Below are positions 25,749 to 33,128 of a stretch of 64,000 bases of DNA, in pieces. This DNA is from an uncultured Pseudomonadales bacterium (lineage in GTDB: Bacteria > Pseudomonadota > Gammaproteobacteria > Pseudomonadales > Azotimanducaceae): positions 310,001 through 374,000 of the forward strand of contig CALSMJ010000004.1 in NCBI GenBank assembly GCA_943787425.1, given 5' to 3'. The position numbers and the translations under genes are program-made. The notes beneath the pieces were generated by a model. That model saw only the letters and a list, made by a program, of their open reading frames with translations, was not told where the DNA came from and ran no database searches. Each line of letters begins with the position of its first letter. The stretch's first letter is position 1.

Positions 25749-26669
25749 TCAGGCTGAGCCTAAGTCTTCTTGTTCTATCGGAAGTCGGATCTCAAAGGTT
25801 GCGCCTCGGCCACGACCATCCTTAACAAGGCTGATCTGCCCAGCATGAAGCTCAGTGATGATGCTGCGACTGATTGATAGTCCAAGACCCGTGCCTTCAC
25901 CGACTTTTTTCGTAGTGTAAAAGGGCTGAAAAATCTCGGGTGCGATGGCATCGTCAATACCCGGGCCATCATCGGATATTTGAATCACAATTTGGTCAGC
26001 AGCCTGAAAAGTATCGATGTAGAGGTTCCCCGACGTGCCCATAGCGTGAAGACTGTTAAGAATAAGATTTGTAAAAACCTGATTCAATTTGCCCTGATTA
26101 CAGTTGATTAACGGCAGGTCACCAAGATTCAAATGGATTTGATACTGATCGTTGATTTTGTTTCGGAGTACATTGAGAGTCGATTTAAGACCTTGGTTCA
26201 AGTCGGCGCCGGAGAAAGCGTCTTGATTGCTGTTCCGGGAGTAGTACCTGAGGTCTCGAACGATCGTTTGGATGCTGATCAGGCCATCAATCGTTTCTCG
26301 TATTAAGACCGGTAGGTCCTCTCGCAGGTAATCTGCGTCAGCCCGTGTGTCTTCGTCCCAGTCGGGGGAACCGGCAGCACAAGCTTCAAGCAAGAGCGGC
26401 AACTGATCATGAAGCGAATTGAGATTAGTGAGACAAAAGCCCACCGGATTGTTGATCTCGTGCGCAATACCGGAAGCCAACTCGCCCACCGATGCCAGTT
26501 TTTCATGCTGGACCATAATGGATTGGTTGCGTTTAAGGTCTTCGTAGAGCCGATTAATTTCCTCATTTTTTTCATAGAGCTTGCGAGACAAGTCTTCTAG
26601 CAAATGCTCCGCCTCATTACGGGCAGATTTTTCCCGATGATAGGCTTTTTCAAAAGCATTATCTGTCAT
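25749..26669 (-). CDS. Histidine kinase coupled to the H-NOX sensor (HnoK/HahK-like)
   Basis: Soluble histidine kinase, 306 aa, no membrane segment and no sensor domain of its own. Residues 5-50 form a charged coiled coil; HisKA has the phosphoacceptor His70 in GIAHEINNPVGF; then N box NLILNSLHAMG, G1 DDGPGIDD and G2 GTGLGLSIS. It starts 3 bp after the H-NOX stop on the same strand without its own ribosome site, so it is probably translationally coupled and regulated by direct contact with H-NOX. No response regulator is adjacent; the receiver domains of the hybrid kinase at 30054 are candidates only. Confidence 0.93.
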   Translation of the reverse strand: MTDNAFEKAYHREKSARNEAEHLLEDLSRKLYEKNEEINRLYEDLKRNQSIMVQHEKLASVGELASGIAHEINNPVGFCLTNLNSLHDQLPLLLEACAAGSPDWDEDTRADADYLREDLPVLIRETIDGLISIQTIVRDLRYYSRNSNQDAFSGADLNQGLKSTLNVLRNKINDQYQIHLNLGDLPLINCNQGKLNQVFTNLILNSLHAMGTSGNLYIDTFQAADQIVIQISDDGPGIDDAIAPEIFQPFYTTKKVGEGTGLGLSISRSIITELHAGQISLVKDGRGRGATFEIRLPIEQEDLGSA

Positions 26670-26672
26670 CGG

Positions 26673-27209
26673 TTAGGTTAAGCTCACCAGCAGCCCACAG
26701 TGGTCCGCGCCATGATGCGCGCAGGGCTCGTGAGTGATGGTGTAATCATGACCGAAGTGTGATGCCGCGCCATCGATTAAGCCTTCTGCTAGCCGACAAA
26801 GATTCCGGTCAGATTCATACTTCAAAAACAATTGTTCGTCGCTCCGCCGGTCTGGCTCGAATCCCGGTGTAATGGCACCGGGATACAGTTTAACGACCTC
26901 AACGTGAATCACGCTGTCTAACGATTCCAAGAAATCAAGCATATTGGCGTGACCATCGATAAGCTGAGGATAACGCTGATAAAAGGCGGGAAACATAAAT
27001 TGGCCGAAAGCAAAGACCAGATCACTCGCAGGGATACTATTGCGTTGGCTAATAATGCCGACGAGGTTGAGCAGTCGCGCATCTTCGTAAATCGCGGTTG
27101 CGGTATAAATGCCGCTCTCATCAGCTTCTTCCAGCACTTCATTCCATTCATTTAGGCCGAGCTGTGTTTCCACCATCTCGGCTAAAATATTCATAACGAT
27201 GCCCTTCAT
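26673..27209 (-). CDS. H-NOX heme nitric oxide sensor protein
   Basis: 178 aa heme protein of the H-NOX family. ATG 27209 is chosen: AAGGAG precedes it and the product begins MKGIVMNILAEMV, the family start. Numbered from there, the proximal heme ligand is H102, with P115 and the propionate-binding Y131, S133, R135, the same numbers as in the Thermoanaerobacter H-NOX. The distal Tyr140 that stabilises oxygen is Leu here, so NO-selective binding is predicted. C138, H160, C163 and C171 match the zinc site of proteobacterial H-NOX. It is immediately followed by its kinase. Confidence 0.95.
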   Translation of the reverse strand: MKGIVMNILAEMVETQLGLNEWNEVLEEADESGIYTATAIYEDARLLNLVGIISQRNSIPASDLVFAFGQFMFPAFYQRYPQLIDGHANMLDFLESLDSVIHVEVVKLYPGAITPGFEPDRRSDEQLFLKYESDRNLCRLAEGLIDGAASHFGHDYTITHEPCAHHGADHCGLLVSLT

Positions 27210-27407
27210 GCCTTGCTCCTTGTGCCTGGTCAATCGCCACGTGTGGTCGTGGCGAACAGATAAAACGACGTAGCGCGTGATACAAAAGAGGTTGCGCAAC
27301 GCGTCAAACTGAAAGTCGATTGGATTCGACAATAAGGTTCGCCAGTGATGGACGAAGTAGCCGAATCCCGCGATCAGCTAATAACTTTGTAGCAAACATC
27401 GCGTCAA

Positions 27408-28115
27408 TTACCAAGGAATCTTTTGCCCTTGCCAGTCCCAAAAGGTGCCTGTGTCAGTCGGCGTGAGCCGCTCGAGCACTCGGAGGCAGTGCTGGGCCGC
27501 CTCTTCCGGGCTGAGCGTGATTCGAGCCGTATCATCGCTTAGAAAGGGTTTTGAGAGCGCGGTTCTCACGGTGCCGGGGTGATACGCAATGAGCGTCGCC
27601 TTAGGGAGACTTCTTTGCCACTCGATGGCAAGGGTCTTAACCGCCATATTAAGGGCGGCTTTCGCACATCGATAGCTATACCAACCACCTAAATCATTGT
27701 CGGCGATCGAGCCCACGCGCGCTGAAAGTGCGACGACGATGGGCTGGTGACCGGCTTTGAGGCTCGCTTGGGCATGCTTGCCAAGGTTCAAGATGGGGAC
27801 AGTATTGATTTCAAACGATGCCATCATGTGCTCGGCATTAAACTGCCGAATACTTTTCTCGGGACCTTGATGCGAGCTGGATAAGATGCCTGTGGTATTG
27901 ATTAAGAGATCAATTTTGGGGGCTTGGGTCATCAAAGCTGCGATGGCGTTTTCCGCGCGGACATCGAGCGAGTGCCAAGTCATTAAGGGATGGTTCCAAA
28001 GGGGCCCCGACTGATGATACGTGCCAAGAACGCGCCAACCCCCTTGTTGGAGGAGCTGTTGTGCAAGCGCGCCGCCGAGACCGCCACTGGCGCCAATGAT
28101 CACGGCTTGCTTCAT
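27408..28115 (-). CDS. Short-chain dehydrogenase/reductase (CsgA/C-factor-like)
   Basis: Cytoplasmic NAD(P)-dependent oxidoreductase, 235 aa. The cofactor loop is GASGGLGGAL at the N-terminus, NTTG follows in the middle, and the catalytic Tyr-Lys pair is in YSYRCAKAAL. ATG 28115 gives the normal SDR N-terminus MKQAVIIGAS; a longer frame to 28250 runs into the DUF393 gene. The gap to DUF393 is 10 bp, so they are probably co-transcribed. Substrate unknown. Confidence 0.9.
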   Translation of the reverse strand: MKQAVIIGASGGLGGALAQQLLQQGGWRVLGTYHQSGPLWNHPLMTWHSLDVRAENAIAALMTQAPKIDLLINTTGILSSSHQGPEKSIRQFNAEHMMASFEINTVPILNLGKHAQASLKAGHQPIVVALSARVGSIADNDLGGWYSYRCAKAALNMAVKTLAIEWQRSLPKATLIAYHPGTVRTALSKPFLSDDTARITLSPEEAAQHCLRVLERLTPTDTGTFWDWQGQKIPW

Positions 28116-28125
28116 GTTGCGCGCC

Positions 28126-28473
28126 TTATGAGTAGAGTCGATCAAATCGCCGTTGTGCCCACTTTCCATAGACAAAATCGGCAAGCGGTTTAACGACAGG
28201 CCAGCGCAGCCAAGACCAGAGAAAGCCAAATCGCGTTTGCTGCCATGCATAAACGCTGGCGTCGAGCCCGCTCAATATCTCGCCATCAGGTTTGCGAAGA
28301 TGCAATCGATTGAGGAAATCGCGCTTGGTTTCTGGGTCTAAATCAACGGCTAGATGGATATCGGTAAGGGTTAAAGAATCCCGTTTGAGTTTCTGAAGAT
28401 GACGCATTTCAATCGAGCACAGAGGGCACTGACCGTCATAATAAAGTTCTGCAGTGGGTAGGGTGTCTGCCAT
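28126..28473 (-). CDS. DUF393 (DCC family) thiol-disulfide oxidoreductase
   Basis: 115 aa thioredoxin-like protein. The family motif D-x-x-C-P-L-C is visible at the N-terminus as YYDGQCPLCSIEM, and the SWLRWPVVKPLADFVYG stretch near the C-terminus is typical. Redox function is inferred from the CxxC-type motif. It lies 10 bp before the SDR gene and 72 bp after the GPH transporter, all on the minus strand. Confidence 0.88.
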   Translation of the reverse strand: MADTLPTAELYYDGQCPLCSIEMRHLQKLKRDSLTLTDIHLAVDLDPETKRDFLNRLHLRKPDGEILSGLDASVYAWQQTRFGFLWSWLRWPVVKPLADFVYGKWAQRRFDRLYS

Positions 28474-28545
28474 GGTCTGTCATCTCGGTATTTTCAAGTG
28501 CTACGAGTGGTCGCCTGAATTAGATTGAAGATGCGCGGCCCGAAT

Positions 28546-29874
28546 TCAGGCGCGCCTGTCAAGTTGCTCTCGAATGCTTTGATGTTGCGCGCGATTGAGG
28601 GGGTAGTTGATCACGGGCAGCGCAGCAAGCAACAGGCCAGCGGCGGTGCCGATGGCATAGGTCCATAACAAGCCCTGTAGAGCCGCCTCAGAGTTTTCAG
28701 CGCCTGGTTGAAACGCGAAAACCGCTTCAAGAATGGTAAAGGACAACCCTACGGCAACCGCAGCACCGAGCTTGTTGGTCGTTGTGAGCATCGCGAAGAA
28801 GAGTCCGGCCCGTTTCTCGCCGGAGTCGAGCTCATCAAGATCCGTAAGGTCAGCCATCATGGTCCTAAGTAAGGTTGGTGCTGCGCCAAAGGCGACGCCA
28901 AAGGACAACGTAAAAGCCCAGAGTACAACCGCATTACCGGGTTCTGCGAGGGGAATCAGGATTAGGTTGATTAAGGCGCCGTATCCAAGGGCAATCGTGA
29001 GCGCTTGGGCTTTACCGAGTTTGATTGCGAGCTTCATCCAGAATGGCATGGCAAGAAAGCTTGCGACGAAATACAGAAGGAGCGCAAGACTTGCATGTCC
29101 GGGCAGTTCAAAATACTTGCTGGCAACAAAGATATAAAGTGCGCCGCTCACAGCGGTGCCAAAGCCCGCTAAAAAATCAGCCGCAAGCAATCGCCACATC
29201 AGTTGATTCGACATCAGCAGCGAGATTTGTGCCTTAATCGACAAAGCACTTCGGCCGCTAGAACGTTTGTCGGGAACGAAAGTAAGGGTTGGTAGGGCGA
29301 GCAGTGGGAACAGGATAATACAGAACCATCCCATACTAGCGACTTTGGAGCGCTGATCGTCGACGCCAGTGGATTCCAGTAGCGCGGGCAGCGCGAGCAC
29401 GATCGTCATGCCGCCAATTACGAATATTTCACGCCAGCCAAAGAGTCGCGTCCGATCGTCATAGCTGTCAGCTAATTCAGCGCCCCAAGATTGATGCGAT
29501 ATGGCCATCATTGTGTAGCCGACGTAAAGCATAATCAGCCAAAAAAGAAGATACCCGCCACTGACGTTTTCCGGTGATGGGATGAAAACTTGGTATACCG
29601 AGACTACGAGGATGGGTACGGCCAGGGCAATCCAATGCTTTCTTCGCCCCCAGCGCGTTTCGAAGCGGTCAATCAGATAGCCCATAGCGGGGTCGGTGAC
29701 AACATCCCAGATTCTGGCGAGGGTGAAGATCAGCCCCACTGTGATTAAGGAAAGTCCTAAGCCCTCGCTGTAAAATCTCGGTAGATAGACGGCGATGGGC
29801 ATGCCCATTGCGGCCATGGGGAGTGCAACACCTGAGTACGCTGCAAGCGTAAAGGGTTTTAGGGGCTGTTGCAT
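28546..29874 (-). CDS. GPH-family MFS transporter (MelB-like cation symporter)
   Basis: 442 aa with about 12 hydrophobic segments. WDVVTDPAMGYLIDR followed by TRWGRRKHWI is the GPH family hallmark (Asp residues for Na+/H+ coupling in MelB). The start ATG 29874 has AGGA 8 bases upstream; frames to 29949 have weaker support. Such carriers move sugars, glucuronides or other organic solutes; the substrate cannot be read here. It is divergent from the hybrid kinase gene. Confidence 0.88.
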   Translation of the reverse strand: MQQPLKPFTLAAYSGVALPMAAMGMPIAVYLPRFYSEGLGLSLITVGLIFTLARIWDVVTDPAMGYLIDRFETRWGRRKHWIALAVPILVVSVYQVFIPSPENVSGGYLLFWLIMLYVGYTMMAISHQSWGAELADSYDDRTRLFGWREIFVIGGMTIVLALPALLESTGVDDQRSKVASMGWFCIILFPLLALPTLTFVPDKRSSGRSALSIKAQISLLMSNQLMWRLLAADFLAGFGTAVSGALYIFVASKYFELPGHASLALLLYFVASFLAMPFWMKLAIKLGKAQALTIALGYGALINLILIPLAEPGNAVVLWAFTLSFGVAFGAAPTLLRTMMADLTDLDELDSGEKRAGLFFAMLTTTNKLGAAVAVGLSFTILEAVFAFQPGAENSEAALQGLLWTYAIGTAAGLLLAALPVINYPLNRAQHQSIREQLDRRA

Positions 29875-29988
29875 GTAGAGCATCCTGACTGAATCATGAC
29901 TCGATCCTACACCAGATAGGTTGGGCTGCGCGTAAAAAAAGCCCACCAAGTTGCAAGGGTAGTTCTTTTTAAGCCCTGAGTTAATCAG

Positions 29989-30053: not shown

Positions 30054-32282
30054 ATGATGACGCCTGTTGAAGAAAGCCCACCGGTAATTTTGCTGGTCGA
30101 TGATGAGCCGCGGATCTTGAGTGCGCTGCAGCGACTGTTAAGACGAGAAGGGTACCGTATCTTGACGGCAGACTCGGGTGAGGCGGCACTTTCAATTTTG
30201 GATCAAGAAGACGTGAACATAATTCTGTCTGATTTGAGAATGCCGGAAATGGATGGTTTTGCGTTTTTTGGGGCGGTGCAGGACCGTGGCTTTGCGGCAG
30301 CACGGGTTTTGATGTCGGGCAATGCAGACCTGAAACTGGTTATTGACGGCGTCAACCAAGGTCGTTTTTCGCAGTTCATCGAAAAGCCTTGGGTTGATGA
30401 TTCGCTCAAAATCAGTCTTCGAAAATTGATTGAGGCACAGCAACTTACCCGGGAAAACCAAGAGTTGATGAAAGCGCTTCGAAGCCAAAATCAAATGTTG
30501 AGTGAGGCCTCTGAAAAAGCGGCGAGCGAGATCCAGCAAAAAGAACGTTTATTTGCAACCATTAGCCATGAAATTAGAAACCCTCTGCATGGTATCCAGG
30601 GCATTTTAGAGCTTTTGAGTCGGGACAGCGTTGGCGGTGATCAAAAGTTGCTGAGCACAGCGATTACCAGCGCCGGGTTTATGCGTCAAATCATCGACGA
30701 TGTGCTGGATTACAGCAAGGTCGAAGCCGGAAAGATGGTGCTGCAGAAAGTTGCTTTTTCGCCCGTAGCCTTGGCAAAGGAGGTTGTATCCCTGATGCAA
30801 CCCATGGCCTCAGGTCAGCAACTCACGCTCAACCTGCACTACGAGGAGGACATAGCGCAGCGATTTTTCAAGGGTGATGACTTCCGGATTCGACAGATTC
30901 TGAATAACCTGTTGTCGAATGCCATTAAGTACACCAAGAAGGGCGGTGTCTGGATTGAGATCACGATCGATCCGGTTTTAAAATTTTCGGTTATGGATAC
31001 GGGTATTGGCATACCGGAAGAAAGGATGGCGTCGTTGTTTGAGGCTTTTGTGATGAGCGATGATCAACACGACCGAACCTTTGGCGGCACCGGGCTTGGA
31101 TTGACCATTGTCAAAAATCTGACTGAGTTGATGGGTGGTGAGATTGATGTCGCAGCCCGTCAAGGTGGTGGCACGGTGTTCTCGATAGCCTTGCCGCTCG
31201 AAGCCACTGCGGCCGAAAATCCGGTCGCAATGGCTCAAGAGGTTGATCAGGTGCTGATTGGAATGCAGGTGGTTGTTGCAGACGATATGGCGGCAAACCG
31301 TATAATTGTCGAGAATCTATTGCCCCGCTATGGGGCAACCGTCCATGGGTTCGCCGATGGCGAAGGCGTGCTCAACTTTTTATCGGAGTTTGATGGCGTT
31401 CCTGATTTATTTCTCTTGGATATTAATATGCCCGGCATGAATGGGGATGAGGTTTTACAAGCCATCAGAGCATCTTCTGCGGAGTTAGCTCGAGTACCGG
31501 CCTATGCCATGAGCGCGTCCTTAAATTTTGCGGGCAGTGACCAGGTGATCAAACTGTTTACCGGACTATTCAGCAAGCCTTTTTCAGTAGGACAATTGCT
31601 AACCCTAGCTCGACAATATGCGCCGTCGCCCTCATTGATCAAGACGGCATCCTTGGCAGATTCAGGCGCTGTGATGAGCAGCGTCAATCGATTGGCGTTT
31701 GAAACGGGGATGCCAGAAGGGCTCGATGCGCCTACGTCGCTCGAAGCTGTCGATGTGGCCCCGGGCGCCACAGGCGCTTCCCATGGCACTGAGGGCGCTC
31801 AAAGCCCAACGGCTGAGGGCTCTCAAAGCCCAACGGCTGAGGGCTCTCAAAACCCAACGGCTGAGGGCTCTCAAAGCCCAACAGCTGAGGGCTCTCAAAA
31901 CCCTGCGACCGGTTCTAAATCCCTCTTTGAAGGTGCGCAGCCAGAGATCGATCTATTGATTGAGGAAATGGGCGTTGAGCTCGTGATGGACCTCAGCGAG
32001 GCCTTCAAGTCAAGTTTGAGTCGCGCGCTGATATCGGCGCAGCCGGGCGGCACGTCGGCGCAACAAGTCGTTGATTTGGCGCATGCTTTAAAGCCAACGG
32101 CTGCAATGCTGGGTTTTTCACAGTTAAGCCAATGTTGCCAGCAAATCGACGGTTTGCGGTCCTCTGGCAATATTAGCTCGGCGATTGATCGTCGGATTGA
32201 ACTGCTGAGCAAAATTGAAATGACGCTGGTGCTGGTCGAGCGTCTCCTCGATTACCTCAAGACAACGAACAAGATGGGTTGA
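30054..32282 (+). CDS. Hybrid histidine kinase REC-HisKA-HATPase-REC-HPt
   Basis: 742 aa soluble phosphorelay protein. An N-terminal receiver (D60 in ILSDLRMPEMDG) is followed by a coiled coil (about 128-165), HisKA with H172 in FATISHEIRNPLHG, HATPase_c (NNLLSNAIKYT, DTGIGIPEE, GGTGLGLTIV), a second receiver (D456 in LLDINMPGMNG), a repeat-rich linker (580-619) and an HPt domain (H677 in LAHALKPTA). No sensor or membrane segment; the input would be phosphorylation of the first receiver. The H-NOX kinase about 3 kb away is a possible donor. AGGA precedes the start. Confidence 0.95.
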   Translation: MMTPVEESPPVILLVDDEPRILSALQRLLRREGYRILTADSGEAALSILDQEDVNIILSDLRMPEMDGFAFFGAVQDRGFAAARVLMSGNADLKLVIDGVNQGRFSQFIEKPWVDDSLKISLRKLIEAQQLTRENQELMKALRSQNQMLSEASEKAASEIQQKERLFATISHEIRNPLHGIQGILELLSRDSVGGDQKLLSTAITSAGFMRQIIDDVLDYSKVEAGKMVLQKVAFSPVALAKEVVSLMQPMASGQQLTLNLHYEEDIAQRFFKGDDFRIRQILNNLLSNAIKYTKKGGVWIEITIDPVLKFSVMDTGIGIPEERMASLFEAFVMSDDQHDRTFGGTGLGLTIVKNLTELMGGEIDVAARQGGGTVFSIALPLEATAAENPVAMAQEVDQVLIGMQVVVADDMAANRIIVENLLPRYGATVHGFADGEGVLNFLSEFDGVPDLFLLDINMPGMNGDEVLQAIRASSAELARVPAYAMSASLNFAGSDQVIKLFTGLFSKPFSVGQLLTLARQYAPSPSLIKTASLADSGAVMSSVNRLAFETGMPEGLDAPTSLEAVDVAPGATGASHGTEGAQSPTAEGSQSPTAEGSQNPTAEGSQSPTAEGSQNPATGSKSLFEGAQPEIDLLIEEMGVELVMDLSEAFKSSLSRALISAQPGGTSAQQVVDLAHALKPTAAMLGFSQLSQCCQQIDGLRSSGNISSAIDRRIELLSKIEMTLVLVERLLDYLKTTNKMG
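31791..31910 (+). repeat. 24-bp minisatellite in the hybrid kinase linker (5 copies)
   Basis: Five units at 31791, 31815, 31839, 31863 and 31887 start GAGGGC(G/T)CTCAAA and differ by one or a few bases; the last is the most diverged. Each encodes eight residues (EGSQSPTA and variants). Because the unit is a multiple of three, copy-number change alters linker length between the second receiver and the HPt domain without frameshift. Confidence 0.95.
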
Positions 32283-32349
32283 ACGCGCGAGACAGGCTCA
32301 ATTTGGCCGCAATCGGGGTTCGGGTATTGGTGTCGGGGTTGCGTAAGCG

Positions 32350-32493
32350 TTGGTGCGCAGAAGCCGAGCGCCAGTCGCTGGCGCGCCAAAACCCTATATT
32401 CCCGATGTGTTGCCGCTTGAGAAAACCCAAGCGAAGTATCAACCGACCATCGATCGTGAGGGTGTTGGTCAGGTCACAATTTACCTAAGCTAA
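32350..32493 (+). CDS. Possible 47-aa small ORF or gene remnant
   Basis: A TTG- or GTG-started frame whose C-terminal half (PYIPDVLPLEKTQAKY, then REGVGQVTIYLS) reads like real protein rather than noise. A stop lies just upstream in frame. No ribosome site is seen, and a 7-bp hairpin (32368-32384) lies inside. It may be the 3' remnant of a lost gene. No family is recognised. Confidence 0.2.
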   Translation: MVRRSRAPVAGAPKPYIPDVLPLEKTQAKYQPTIDREGVGQVTIYLS

Positions 32494-32498
32494 GAAGA

Positions 32499-33128
32499 TC
32501 ATTTATCCGGATAGGCGGCCTGACAGGCTTCTCGAAGCAGGCGCGTACCGGATTCCGTCGTGACTTTAGTGAGCGACTTTAAAATGCACTCAGCGGCTTT
32601 TTCGGAGAGCTGCGTGGGTTCAGGTGGCGCTTTTTCACGCCAACGAAGGCCTGGATTCGGTCGCATTCGGGGGTCCATACCCGGCTCGGAAGGGTTGAAA
32701 TCGCGTAGGACAACATGATGACCACCCGAATCATTAACGATGACATCAACGTTCATGTCGCTTAGCGCGCTGTCTTCATTGAGCGCTTCATTCAATGCGG
32801 CCATGACCTCCGGCGGTAGGTTTTTATCGCGGAGTTCATCTTGTAAGAGGCGACGGATCGCGTTTGAATCCAAAGCATTGGCCGATCCGGCTCGAATCAC
32901 TTTGATTTTCCGCTCTGATGGCGCGCGCGTATCCTCATCGCTCATAATCTGGATCATGATCGTTTCTTCAGAGCCCTCAGCCTCATGCGTCGCGTGAACA
33001 TCCTGGGTGATGGCAGCCTGGCCATTGAGCCCGAGTGTTTCGTCGGCGAGGCTCTGGGGCATTTGGATCAAAAAGCCAACAAAGACCGCTGTGAAGCTGA
33101 TGATAAAACGCAAGGTTATCGAAAGCAT
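32499..33128 (-). CDS. Secreted protein of unknown function
   Basis: 209 aa from ATG 33128, which has GGGAGAG upstream; a TTG five codons earlier overlaps that site and is less likely. A signal peptide (LRFIISFTAVFVGFLIQM, cleavage probably after SLA) indicates export to the periplasm. The mature part is charged, with an Asp/Asn-rich centre (NEALNEDSALSDMNVDVIV), a proline-rich segment and a C-terminal pair of cysteines (AAECILKSL ... LREACQAAYP) that could form a disulfide. I do not recognise a family. Confidence 0.7.
   Translation of the reverse strand: MLSITLRFIISFTAVFVGFLIQMPQSLADETLGLNGQAAITQDVHATHEAEGSEETIMIQIMSDEDTRAPSERKIKVIRAGSANALDSNAIRRLLQDELRDKNLPPEVMAALNEALNEDSALSDMNVDVIVNDSGGHHVVLRDFNPSEPGMDPRMRPNPGLRWREKAPPEPTQLSEKAAECILKSLTKVTTESGTRLLREACQAAYPDK

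Follow-up and report, generated by a model that had tools for sequence, protein, structure and literature searches.

In an uncultured bacterium of the order Pseudomonadales (family Azotimanducaceae), an H-NOX sensor and the soluble histidine kinase encoded beside it probably act through a second kinase, a receiver-first hybrid encoded nearby, which would replace the c-di-GMP regulators that adjoin such pairs in other genera. The window that we analyzed, the whole stretch of 64,000 nucleotides between positions 310,001 and 374,000 of contig CALSMJ010000004.1, contains both signaling units, with SDR, DCC1-like, and MFS genes between them (Table 1). In the proposed circuit, NO-bound or cysteine-oxidized H-NOX would inhibit autophosphorylation of the soluble kinase, and the phosphorylated kinase would hand its phosphate to D60 of the NosR-family receiver at the N terminus of the hybrid (RR1). 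Through the helix behind it, RR1 would then control the hybrid's own kinase, from which phosphate would be relayed within the protein from H172 to D456 and to H677 of the HPt domain, and onward to a response regulator encoded elsewhere.

The hybrid is the likely replacement target because its first receiver is of the NosR family, because it has an ortholog in an H-NOX cluster of another genus, and because the hybrid and the H-NOX/kinase pair appear to have been lost together. Counting against this partnership are the position of the hybrid gene outside the H-NOX operon and the occurrence of receiver-first hybrids without H-NOX as well. We infer every phosphotransfer step, along with the role of RR1 as the input, and take the sign of the H-NOX control from characterized homologs, in which activated H-NOX inhibits HnoK autophosphorylation (PMC12329717, PMC8846402).

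Table 1. Coordinates of the two signaling units and of the genes between them, in positions of the window
Feature	Positions	Strand	Basis
Gene of a soluble HnoK-type histidine kinase (306 aa) with a HEINN motif around the phospho-acceptor His and a conserved helix at the N terminus	25749..26669	(-)	Pfam, alignment
H-NOX sensor gene with CHCC motif, 178 aa	26673..27209	(-)	Pfam, solved-structure matches, alignment
Shine-Dalgarno-like AAGGAG, 5' of the H-NOX ATG	27216..27221	(-)	Read in sequence
SDR, DCC1-like, and MFS genes between the signaling units, retained on a contig without both units	27408..29949	(-)	Pfam, comparison
Gene of the hybrid kinase (742 aa), the proposed direct target, with domains in the order RR1, HisKA, HATPase_c, RR2, HPt	30054..32282	(+)	Pfam, NCBIfam
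Receiver 1 (RR1), NosR-family, D60; proposed phosphate acceptor	30087..30410	(+)	Pfam, NCBIfam, tree
Receiver 2 (RR2), D456	31269..31607	(+)	Alignment, search
HPt domain of the hybrid, H677	32001..32153	(+)	Pfam, alignment

The sensor and its kinase form an ordinary H-NOX module

The H-NOX/kinase feature is real and far above chance. Translated from the ATG at 27209, the sensor matches Pfam HNOB over the complete profile (138.7 bits, E = 2.1e-40, positions 1 to 163 of 163), and its best solved-structure matches over query residues 1 to 177, namely 2kii, 4u9b, and 4u99 (E = 4.3e-38 to 6.7e-38), are entries that we take to be Shewanella H-NOX proteins. No second H-NOX gene was detected in the genome (93.66% complete). 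The sequence-only reading had placed H102, P115, Y131, S133, and R135 at these numbers, predicted a CHCC zinc site, and noted the absence of the distal tyrosine, and the alignment bears it out on all of these points: the five residues are in place, position 140 is Leu, and the candidate zinc-site motif C138/H160/C163/C171 is complete. Across 37 aligned rows (36 reading frames, with that of the window entered twice), H102, P115, Y131, and S133 never vary, and R135 is Arg in 36; Tyr at position 140, the mark of O2-binding H-NOX proteins, occurs in no row. The frames come from 38 loci, of which L058 and L071, where no H-NOX frame was called, were dropped. With its full-length HNOB match, the proximal His, the Pro, and the YxSxR motif, and without Tyr140, the protein is a member of the H-NOX family, and its ligand positions (C, H/Q, C, C) place it among the H-NOX proteins with a zinc site of three Cys and one His or Gln. 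A weak V4R match in the same gene (26676-27209; 21.1 bits versus a cut-off of 31) covers residues 132 to 174 and spans the CHCC motif.

Selectivity for NO had been predicted from the missing tyrosine. A preference for NO is indeed the usual reading for such a sequence, H-NOX proteins of the NO type being without the distal Tyr (PMC12329717), but cysteine oxidation is a candidate signal as well. H-NOX proteins with a zinc site of three Cys and His or Gln can be activated by Cys oxidation, as is described for that of Vibrio cholerae, and a zinc-site H-NOX of Caulobacter responds to Cys oxidation, its NO-bound form being inactive on its kinase (PMC12329717). The physiological signal may therefore be either NO or oxidation. 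With the motif intact in the window protein, it is conceivable, if rather doubtful, that the sensor responds to oxidants through the Cys/His zinc site and not to NO; against this, its closest solved structures include some deposited as "NO-binding heme-dependent sensor protein," and the Caulobacter kinase, which belongs to the kinase-receiver type, differs from that of the window (PMC12329717). Sensing of oxidants would leave the downstream wiring unchanged and is compatible with the proposed circuit.

The kinase matches HATPase_c at 84.9 bits and HisKA at 22.1 bits, under the Pfam cut-off of 26.9, and Pfam finds no receiver domain in its 306 residues. As a soluble, receiver-free HisKA/HATPase protein adjoining H-NOX, with HisKA alone falling under the cut-off, it is of the HnoK type; lacking a receiver of its own, it is not an H-NOX hybrid kinase of the HqsK/HahK type. 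Its ATG follows the H-NOX stop codon after three bases (CCG), with no Shine-Dalgarno sequence visible ahead of it, just as the sequence-only reading had described. The HEINN motif fits a bifunctional kinase/phosphatase, an activity that has been argued for NosK from the same motif (PMC12570481). Pairwise dN/dS is 0.03-0.06 for the H-NOX gene and 0.05-0.07 for the kinase gene.

The CHCC motif is present in 20 of the 36 H-NOX frames, and these adjoin a kinase of the same type except at two loci: L066, which has no adjoining kinase, and L042, whose contig stops after H-NOX, with a kinase fragment on a separate contig (L205). At L076, H-NOX lacks the motif, yet a kinase of the same type lies alongside. 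Because the conserved residues, the motif, and the kinase pairing recur among the aligned frames, the pair is, as far as its sequences go, an ordinary example of the H-NOX/HnoK-type module, which is already known. The N-terminal helix of the kinase, RAxxRERxARxxAExLLExxSRELY (within window 25749-26669), is likewise found at the start of two proteins with an HD domain, encoded near H-NOX in G093 and G136 (L050 5846-6736; L051 5314-6240). The pattern, built post hoc from these proteins, occurs in 9 of 743 reading frames, every one of them in an H-NOX locus, and the helix could be a docking helix for H-NOX.

The hybrid kinase opens with a receiver of the NosR family

A hybrid kinase with two receivers and an HPt domain had also been noted nearby, and Pfam recovers its domains at 30054-32282, with the HPt domain at 25.8 bits versus a cut-off of 24.6. 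The gene is divergent from the H-NOX gene, 2.8 kb off the H-NOX start, and D60, H172, D456, and H677 of its product are invariant across six orthologs. With a score of 182.2 bits, residues 12 to 163 match positions 1 to 152, the receiver part, of NCBIfam NF053512 ("response regulator c-di-GMP phosphodiesterase, NosR family"). The receiver is thus of the NosR family, whereas the protein as a whole is not, scoring 182.2 versus 400 bits and having a kinase as its output. The same model scores 202.2 bits on the hybrid of G051 and 431.1 bits, above the cut-off, on the HD-GYP regulator of G085. NosK is reported to phosphorylate NosR in vitro within 15 s (PMC12570481).

Over the whole hybrid, dN/dS is 0.12-0.13; RR1 is the most constrained part (0.035-0.041), followed by RR2 and the kinase (0.06-0.09), HPt (0.14-0.22), and the linker, the least constrained (0.29-0.36), although these ratios are rough because dS spans 0.6 to 2.1, with the pairs involving G014 and G003 saturated. 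This linker, which joins RR2 to HPt, contains a tandem repeat (31789-31903; 24-base unit, 4.8 copies). Four residues past its active His (window 32082-32096), the HPt domain has a Pro that recurs in four relatives of the genus, the G051 hybrid having Gly at this place. The hybrid gene of G012 (L043 3972-6108) loses its frame after RR2 and before HPt, a break that may be real or an assembly error. Directly after the hybrid, G002, G004, and G012 have a quinone oxidoreductase-like gene, present in part in G003 as well, that is absent from the window (32283-32499).

The search with RR1 covered 146 relatives (E <= 1e-16, with at most 31 candidates per genome scored) and yielded at least 66 matches beyond the genus. 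An H-NOX gene lies within 6.5 kb of 12 of the 66 matches listed and of 10 of the best 20, and a kinase relative lies within 5 kb of 42 of the 66, a count that stands without a background rate for other receivers. RR2, meant as the control, gave one match beyond the genus, so that the adjacency count has no control receiver. The neighborhoods counted comprise 98 of the 126 kinase matches beyond the genus (the 28 weakest were omitted) and 30 of the 31 H-NOX rows, the omitted one being the second piece of one gene.

A tree built from 65 receivers pairs the genus RR1 with that of the G051 hybrid (support 88) and the genus RR2 with the G051 RR2 (99), deep supports being weak (44-66); the 16 other receivers included from the window's own genome all lie apart from the H-NOX-linked ones. 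A weak LytTR-type match and the best RR1 match beyond the genus (G036:C181), whose frame was not called, are outside this tree. The single match to RR2 beyond the genus in the same 146 genomes (E <= 1e-14) is again the G051 hybrid, which adjoins the H-NOX of that genome. Together, the receiver tree and this single match identify the G051 protein, encoded in the H-NOX cluster of a different genus, as the ortholog of the hybrid. A class-wide search for the hybrid used an overly strict threshold and scored three candidates per genome, and a plasmid search gave just partial matches of <60% identity. A receiver-first hybrid in G433 is clustered with a CheB-like gene and has no H-NOX nearby; therefore, the architecture alone proves nothing.

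The kinase might instead feed the hybrid at RR2, or the HPt domain through RR2, bypassing the hybrid kinase and leaving RR1 to be served by another kinase. Vibrio fischeri HahK, which signals through SypF and LuxU, could be taken as a precedent, but HahK works via D506 of its own receiver (PMC12369376), whereas the window kinase is receiver-free, and the family linked to such kinases is that of RR1, not that of RR2. We regard entry at RR2 as very improbable and retain RR1 as the putative point of entry.

No HnoB- or HnoD-like regulators were found in the window's genome

In other genera, the H-NOX/kinase pair adjoins response regulators whose output domain is EAL or HD-GYP, the HD-GYP domains presumably being degenerate, as read from their motifs. 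Both an RR-EAL and an RR-HD-GYP protein are encoded beside the pair in G019 and G085 (by Pfam) and in G042 (by similarity), and reading combined with similarity points to an RR-EAL protein in G044, G093, and G136 and to an RR-HD-GYP protein in G116. The G051 pair is accompanied by two regulators, one of the HD-GYP type and one LuxO-like with sigma-54 (564 bits versus a cut-off of 800), and the G059 pair by a short receiver protein instead; within four reading frames of the pair in G100 and G141, no regulator of the EAL or HD-GYP type was found. Plasmids carry such combinations too: H-NOX and the kinase lie near an HD-GYP regulator in Pseudoalteromonas xiamenensis and ~5 kb from one, along with an HPt protein, in Vibrio coralliilyticus. 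The LuxO-like gene of G051 (L047 6025-7401) is located between the hybrid and the HD-GYP regulator, opposite H-NOX, and its product is a possible end point of the G051 hybrid HPt.

The window's genome has 19 receiver matches, 17 of them above the cut-off, and three EAL proteins. Among the matches listed at 93.66% completeness, it contains no HnoB/HnoD-like receiver besides RR1, which is also the only receiver of the H-NOX-linked type (E <= 1e-16); the G051 HD-GYP regulator, compared with this genome, matches receivers only, with RR1 the best (E = 3.5e-12). A Shewanella-type hno circuit, with HnoB (RR-EAL) and HnoD (degenerate HD-GYP), is accordingly missing from the matches listed, and relocation of such regulators elsewhere in the genome was rejected within the same scope.

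Two regulators of this genome could nevertheless be the true partner of the kinase, with the hybrid separate and linked to it by chance. One is an orphan response regulator of 254 aa (G000:C1, near 1406304; L112 3963-4724), whose C-terminal part has no recognized domain; the other is a PvrR-like RR-EAL protein (G000:C1 780451-781563). The best NCBIfam model for the former is NosR, weakly, at 84.7 bits, which is the top NosR score among the matches listed for eight other response regulators of the genome (for six of the eight, these are the best 25 matches, below which a NosR score of up to 108 bits could still lie in the NtrC protein, for example). The latter has the output type of HnoB, its best model being PvrR (283 bits versus a cut-off of 580), and by similarity to the two window kinases, no kinase gene was recognized beside either. 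However, neither receiver groups with the H-NOX-linked receivers in the tree or is matched by RR1 at E <= 1e-16, and a separate regulator leaves unexplained why the hybrid and the H-NOX/kinase pair would be lost together. We therefore consider a separate partner unlikely and continue with the hybrid as the probable target.

Both units are present, and were apparently lost, together

Across 15 genomes of the genus, H-NOX is found in nine and the hybrid in seven (E <= 1e-60), with both in six and neither in five. H-NOX occurs without the hybrid in G005, G006, and G008, and the hybrid without H-NOX in G003; in all four, the contig stops short of the place of the other unit. The weakest point of the joint presence is G006, which is 96% complete and has H-NOX, with no hybrid detected and its contig ending before the place. 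The order of hybrid, MFS, DCC1, SDR, H-NOX, kinase, and GlpC-like genes is found on single contigs of G000, G004, G012, and G014 and in pieces elsewhere. In G001, G009, G011, and G013, the MFS gene adjoins the GlpC-like gene, and both units, DCC1, and SDR are absent; because the search for deletion scars there returned just matches to the edge of the MFS gene, this clade may never have carried the genes. G007 has neither the GlpC-like gene nor a close MFS ortholog.

Contig C12 of G008 (L204) retains the MFS, DCC1, SDR, and GlpC-like genes at 80-94% identity and lacks both the H-NOX/kinase pair and the hybrid. In a tree of two flanking proteins, C12 is nested in the H-NOX-bearing clade, separated from G012 with a support of 0.993. 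Its gap between SDR and the GlpC-like gene holds 105 bases that align at 82% identity (E = 9.7e-26) with the kinase gene (positions 736-840 of 921), with no match in any of 100 base-shuffles, and makes a strong candidate for a kinase/H-NOX deletion scar. In the gap between MFS and a gene whose sequence we read as quinone oxidoreductase-like, 65-70 columns correspond to the 3' end of the hybrid, with E-values, unaccompanied by a shuffle comparison, of 7.7e-7 and 4e-4 against the G012 and G004 copies. The window's own hybrid gives no match to it at E 0.01, and a longer match from another comparison reaches into the start of the neighboring gene; the case for a hybrid deletion scar is modest. The best reading of the scars is that two deletions took both units and spared the three genes between them. 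The G008 bin looks mixed because the region occurs again, this time with H-NOX, on contig C175, and copies of the units elsewhere in the source genome of C12 are possible.

That the hybrid is an unrelated neighbor was rejected on its receiver family, its orthology with the H-NOX-cluster hybrid, and the joint loss. The kinase, which the sequence-only reading had called orphan-like, is so by strict adjacency, but the same three lines point to the hybrid as its partner.

Discussion

Two deletions in one lineage, with the genes between them spared, would be unusually direct comparative evidence that the units act together. A more general view, to which we give even chances, is that two kinases work in series, the direct substrate of the H-NOX-regulated kinase being the receiver that serves a second, soluble kinase as its input, such that the gas signal would have moved from c-di-GMP turnover to an HPt phosphorelay and the units would be gained and lost as one functional set despite lying outside a shared operon. 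The comparison suggests that the receiver family was kept while the output that it drives switched from c-di-GMP turnover to a kinase, and what the sensor controls is narrowed to a few phosphotransfer assays.

The described H-NOX pathways, in the parts of the literature cited here, lead to c-di-GMP enzymes, to a transcription factor, or to quorum-sensing/HPt proteins. No description of an H-NOX link via a receiver-first hybrid was found in the portions of the literature searched, the primary Shewanella papers and HnoS lying outside this comparison. The HnoX/HnoK system of Shewanella oneidensis, with HnoB, HnoC, HnoD, and HnoS (PMC6335343, PMC8738867, PMC8846402, PMC12329717), has the same H-NOX/kinase pairing and zinc motif type, and from this likeness, the window kinase is expected to be inhibited by activated H-NOX (PMC12329717, PMC8846402). 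The targets differ: Shewanella HnoK phosphorylates a phosphodiesterase of the EAL type, a protein with a degenerate HD-GYP domain, and a transcription factor, whereas the candidate in the window is the receiver-first hybrid. The NosP/NosK/NosR system (PMC12570481) appears to share with the window a soluble, sensor-free kinase with the HEINN motif and a NosR-family receiver as the substrate, but its sensor is NosP (FIST) and its output a degenerate HD-GYP domain, whereas in the window, H-NOX takes the place of NosP and the receiver stands at the front of a kinase. The HqsK-LuxU and HahK-SypF/LuxU pathways of Vibrio likewise lead from an H-NOX kinase into an HPt phosphorelay (PMC8738867, PMC12369376), in the case of V. 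fischeri HahK with entry partly via another hybrid kinase (PMC12369376). HqsK and HahK have their own receiver, from which phosphate goes to HPt, whereas the window kinase is receiver-free and its proposed substrate is an input receiver. The proposed circuit would thus resemble HnoX/HnoK and NosK/NosR at its top and HqsK-LuxU or HahK-SypF at its bottom.
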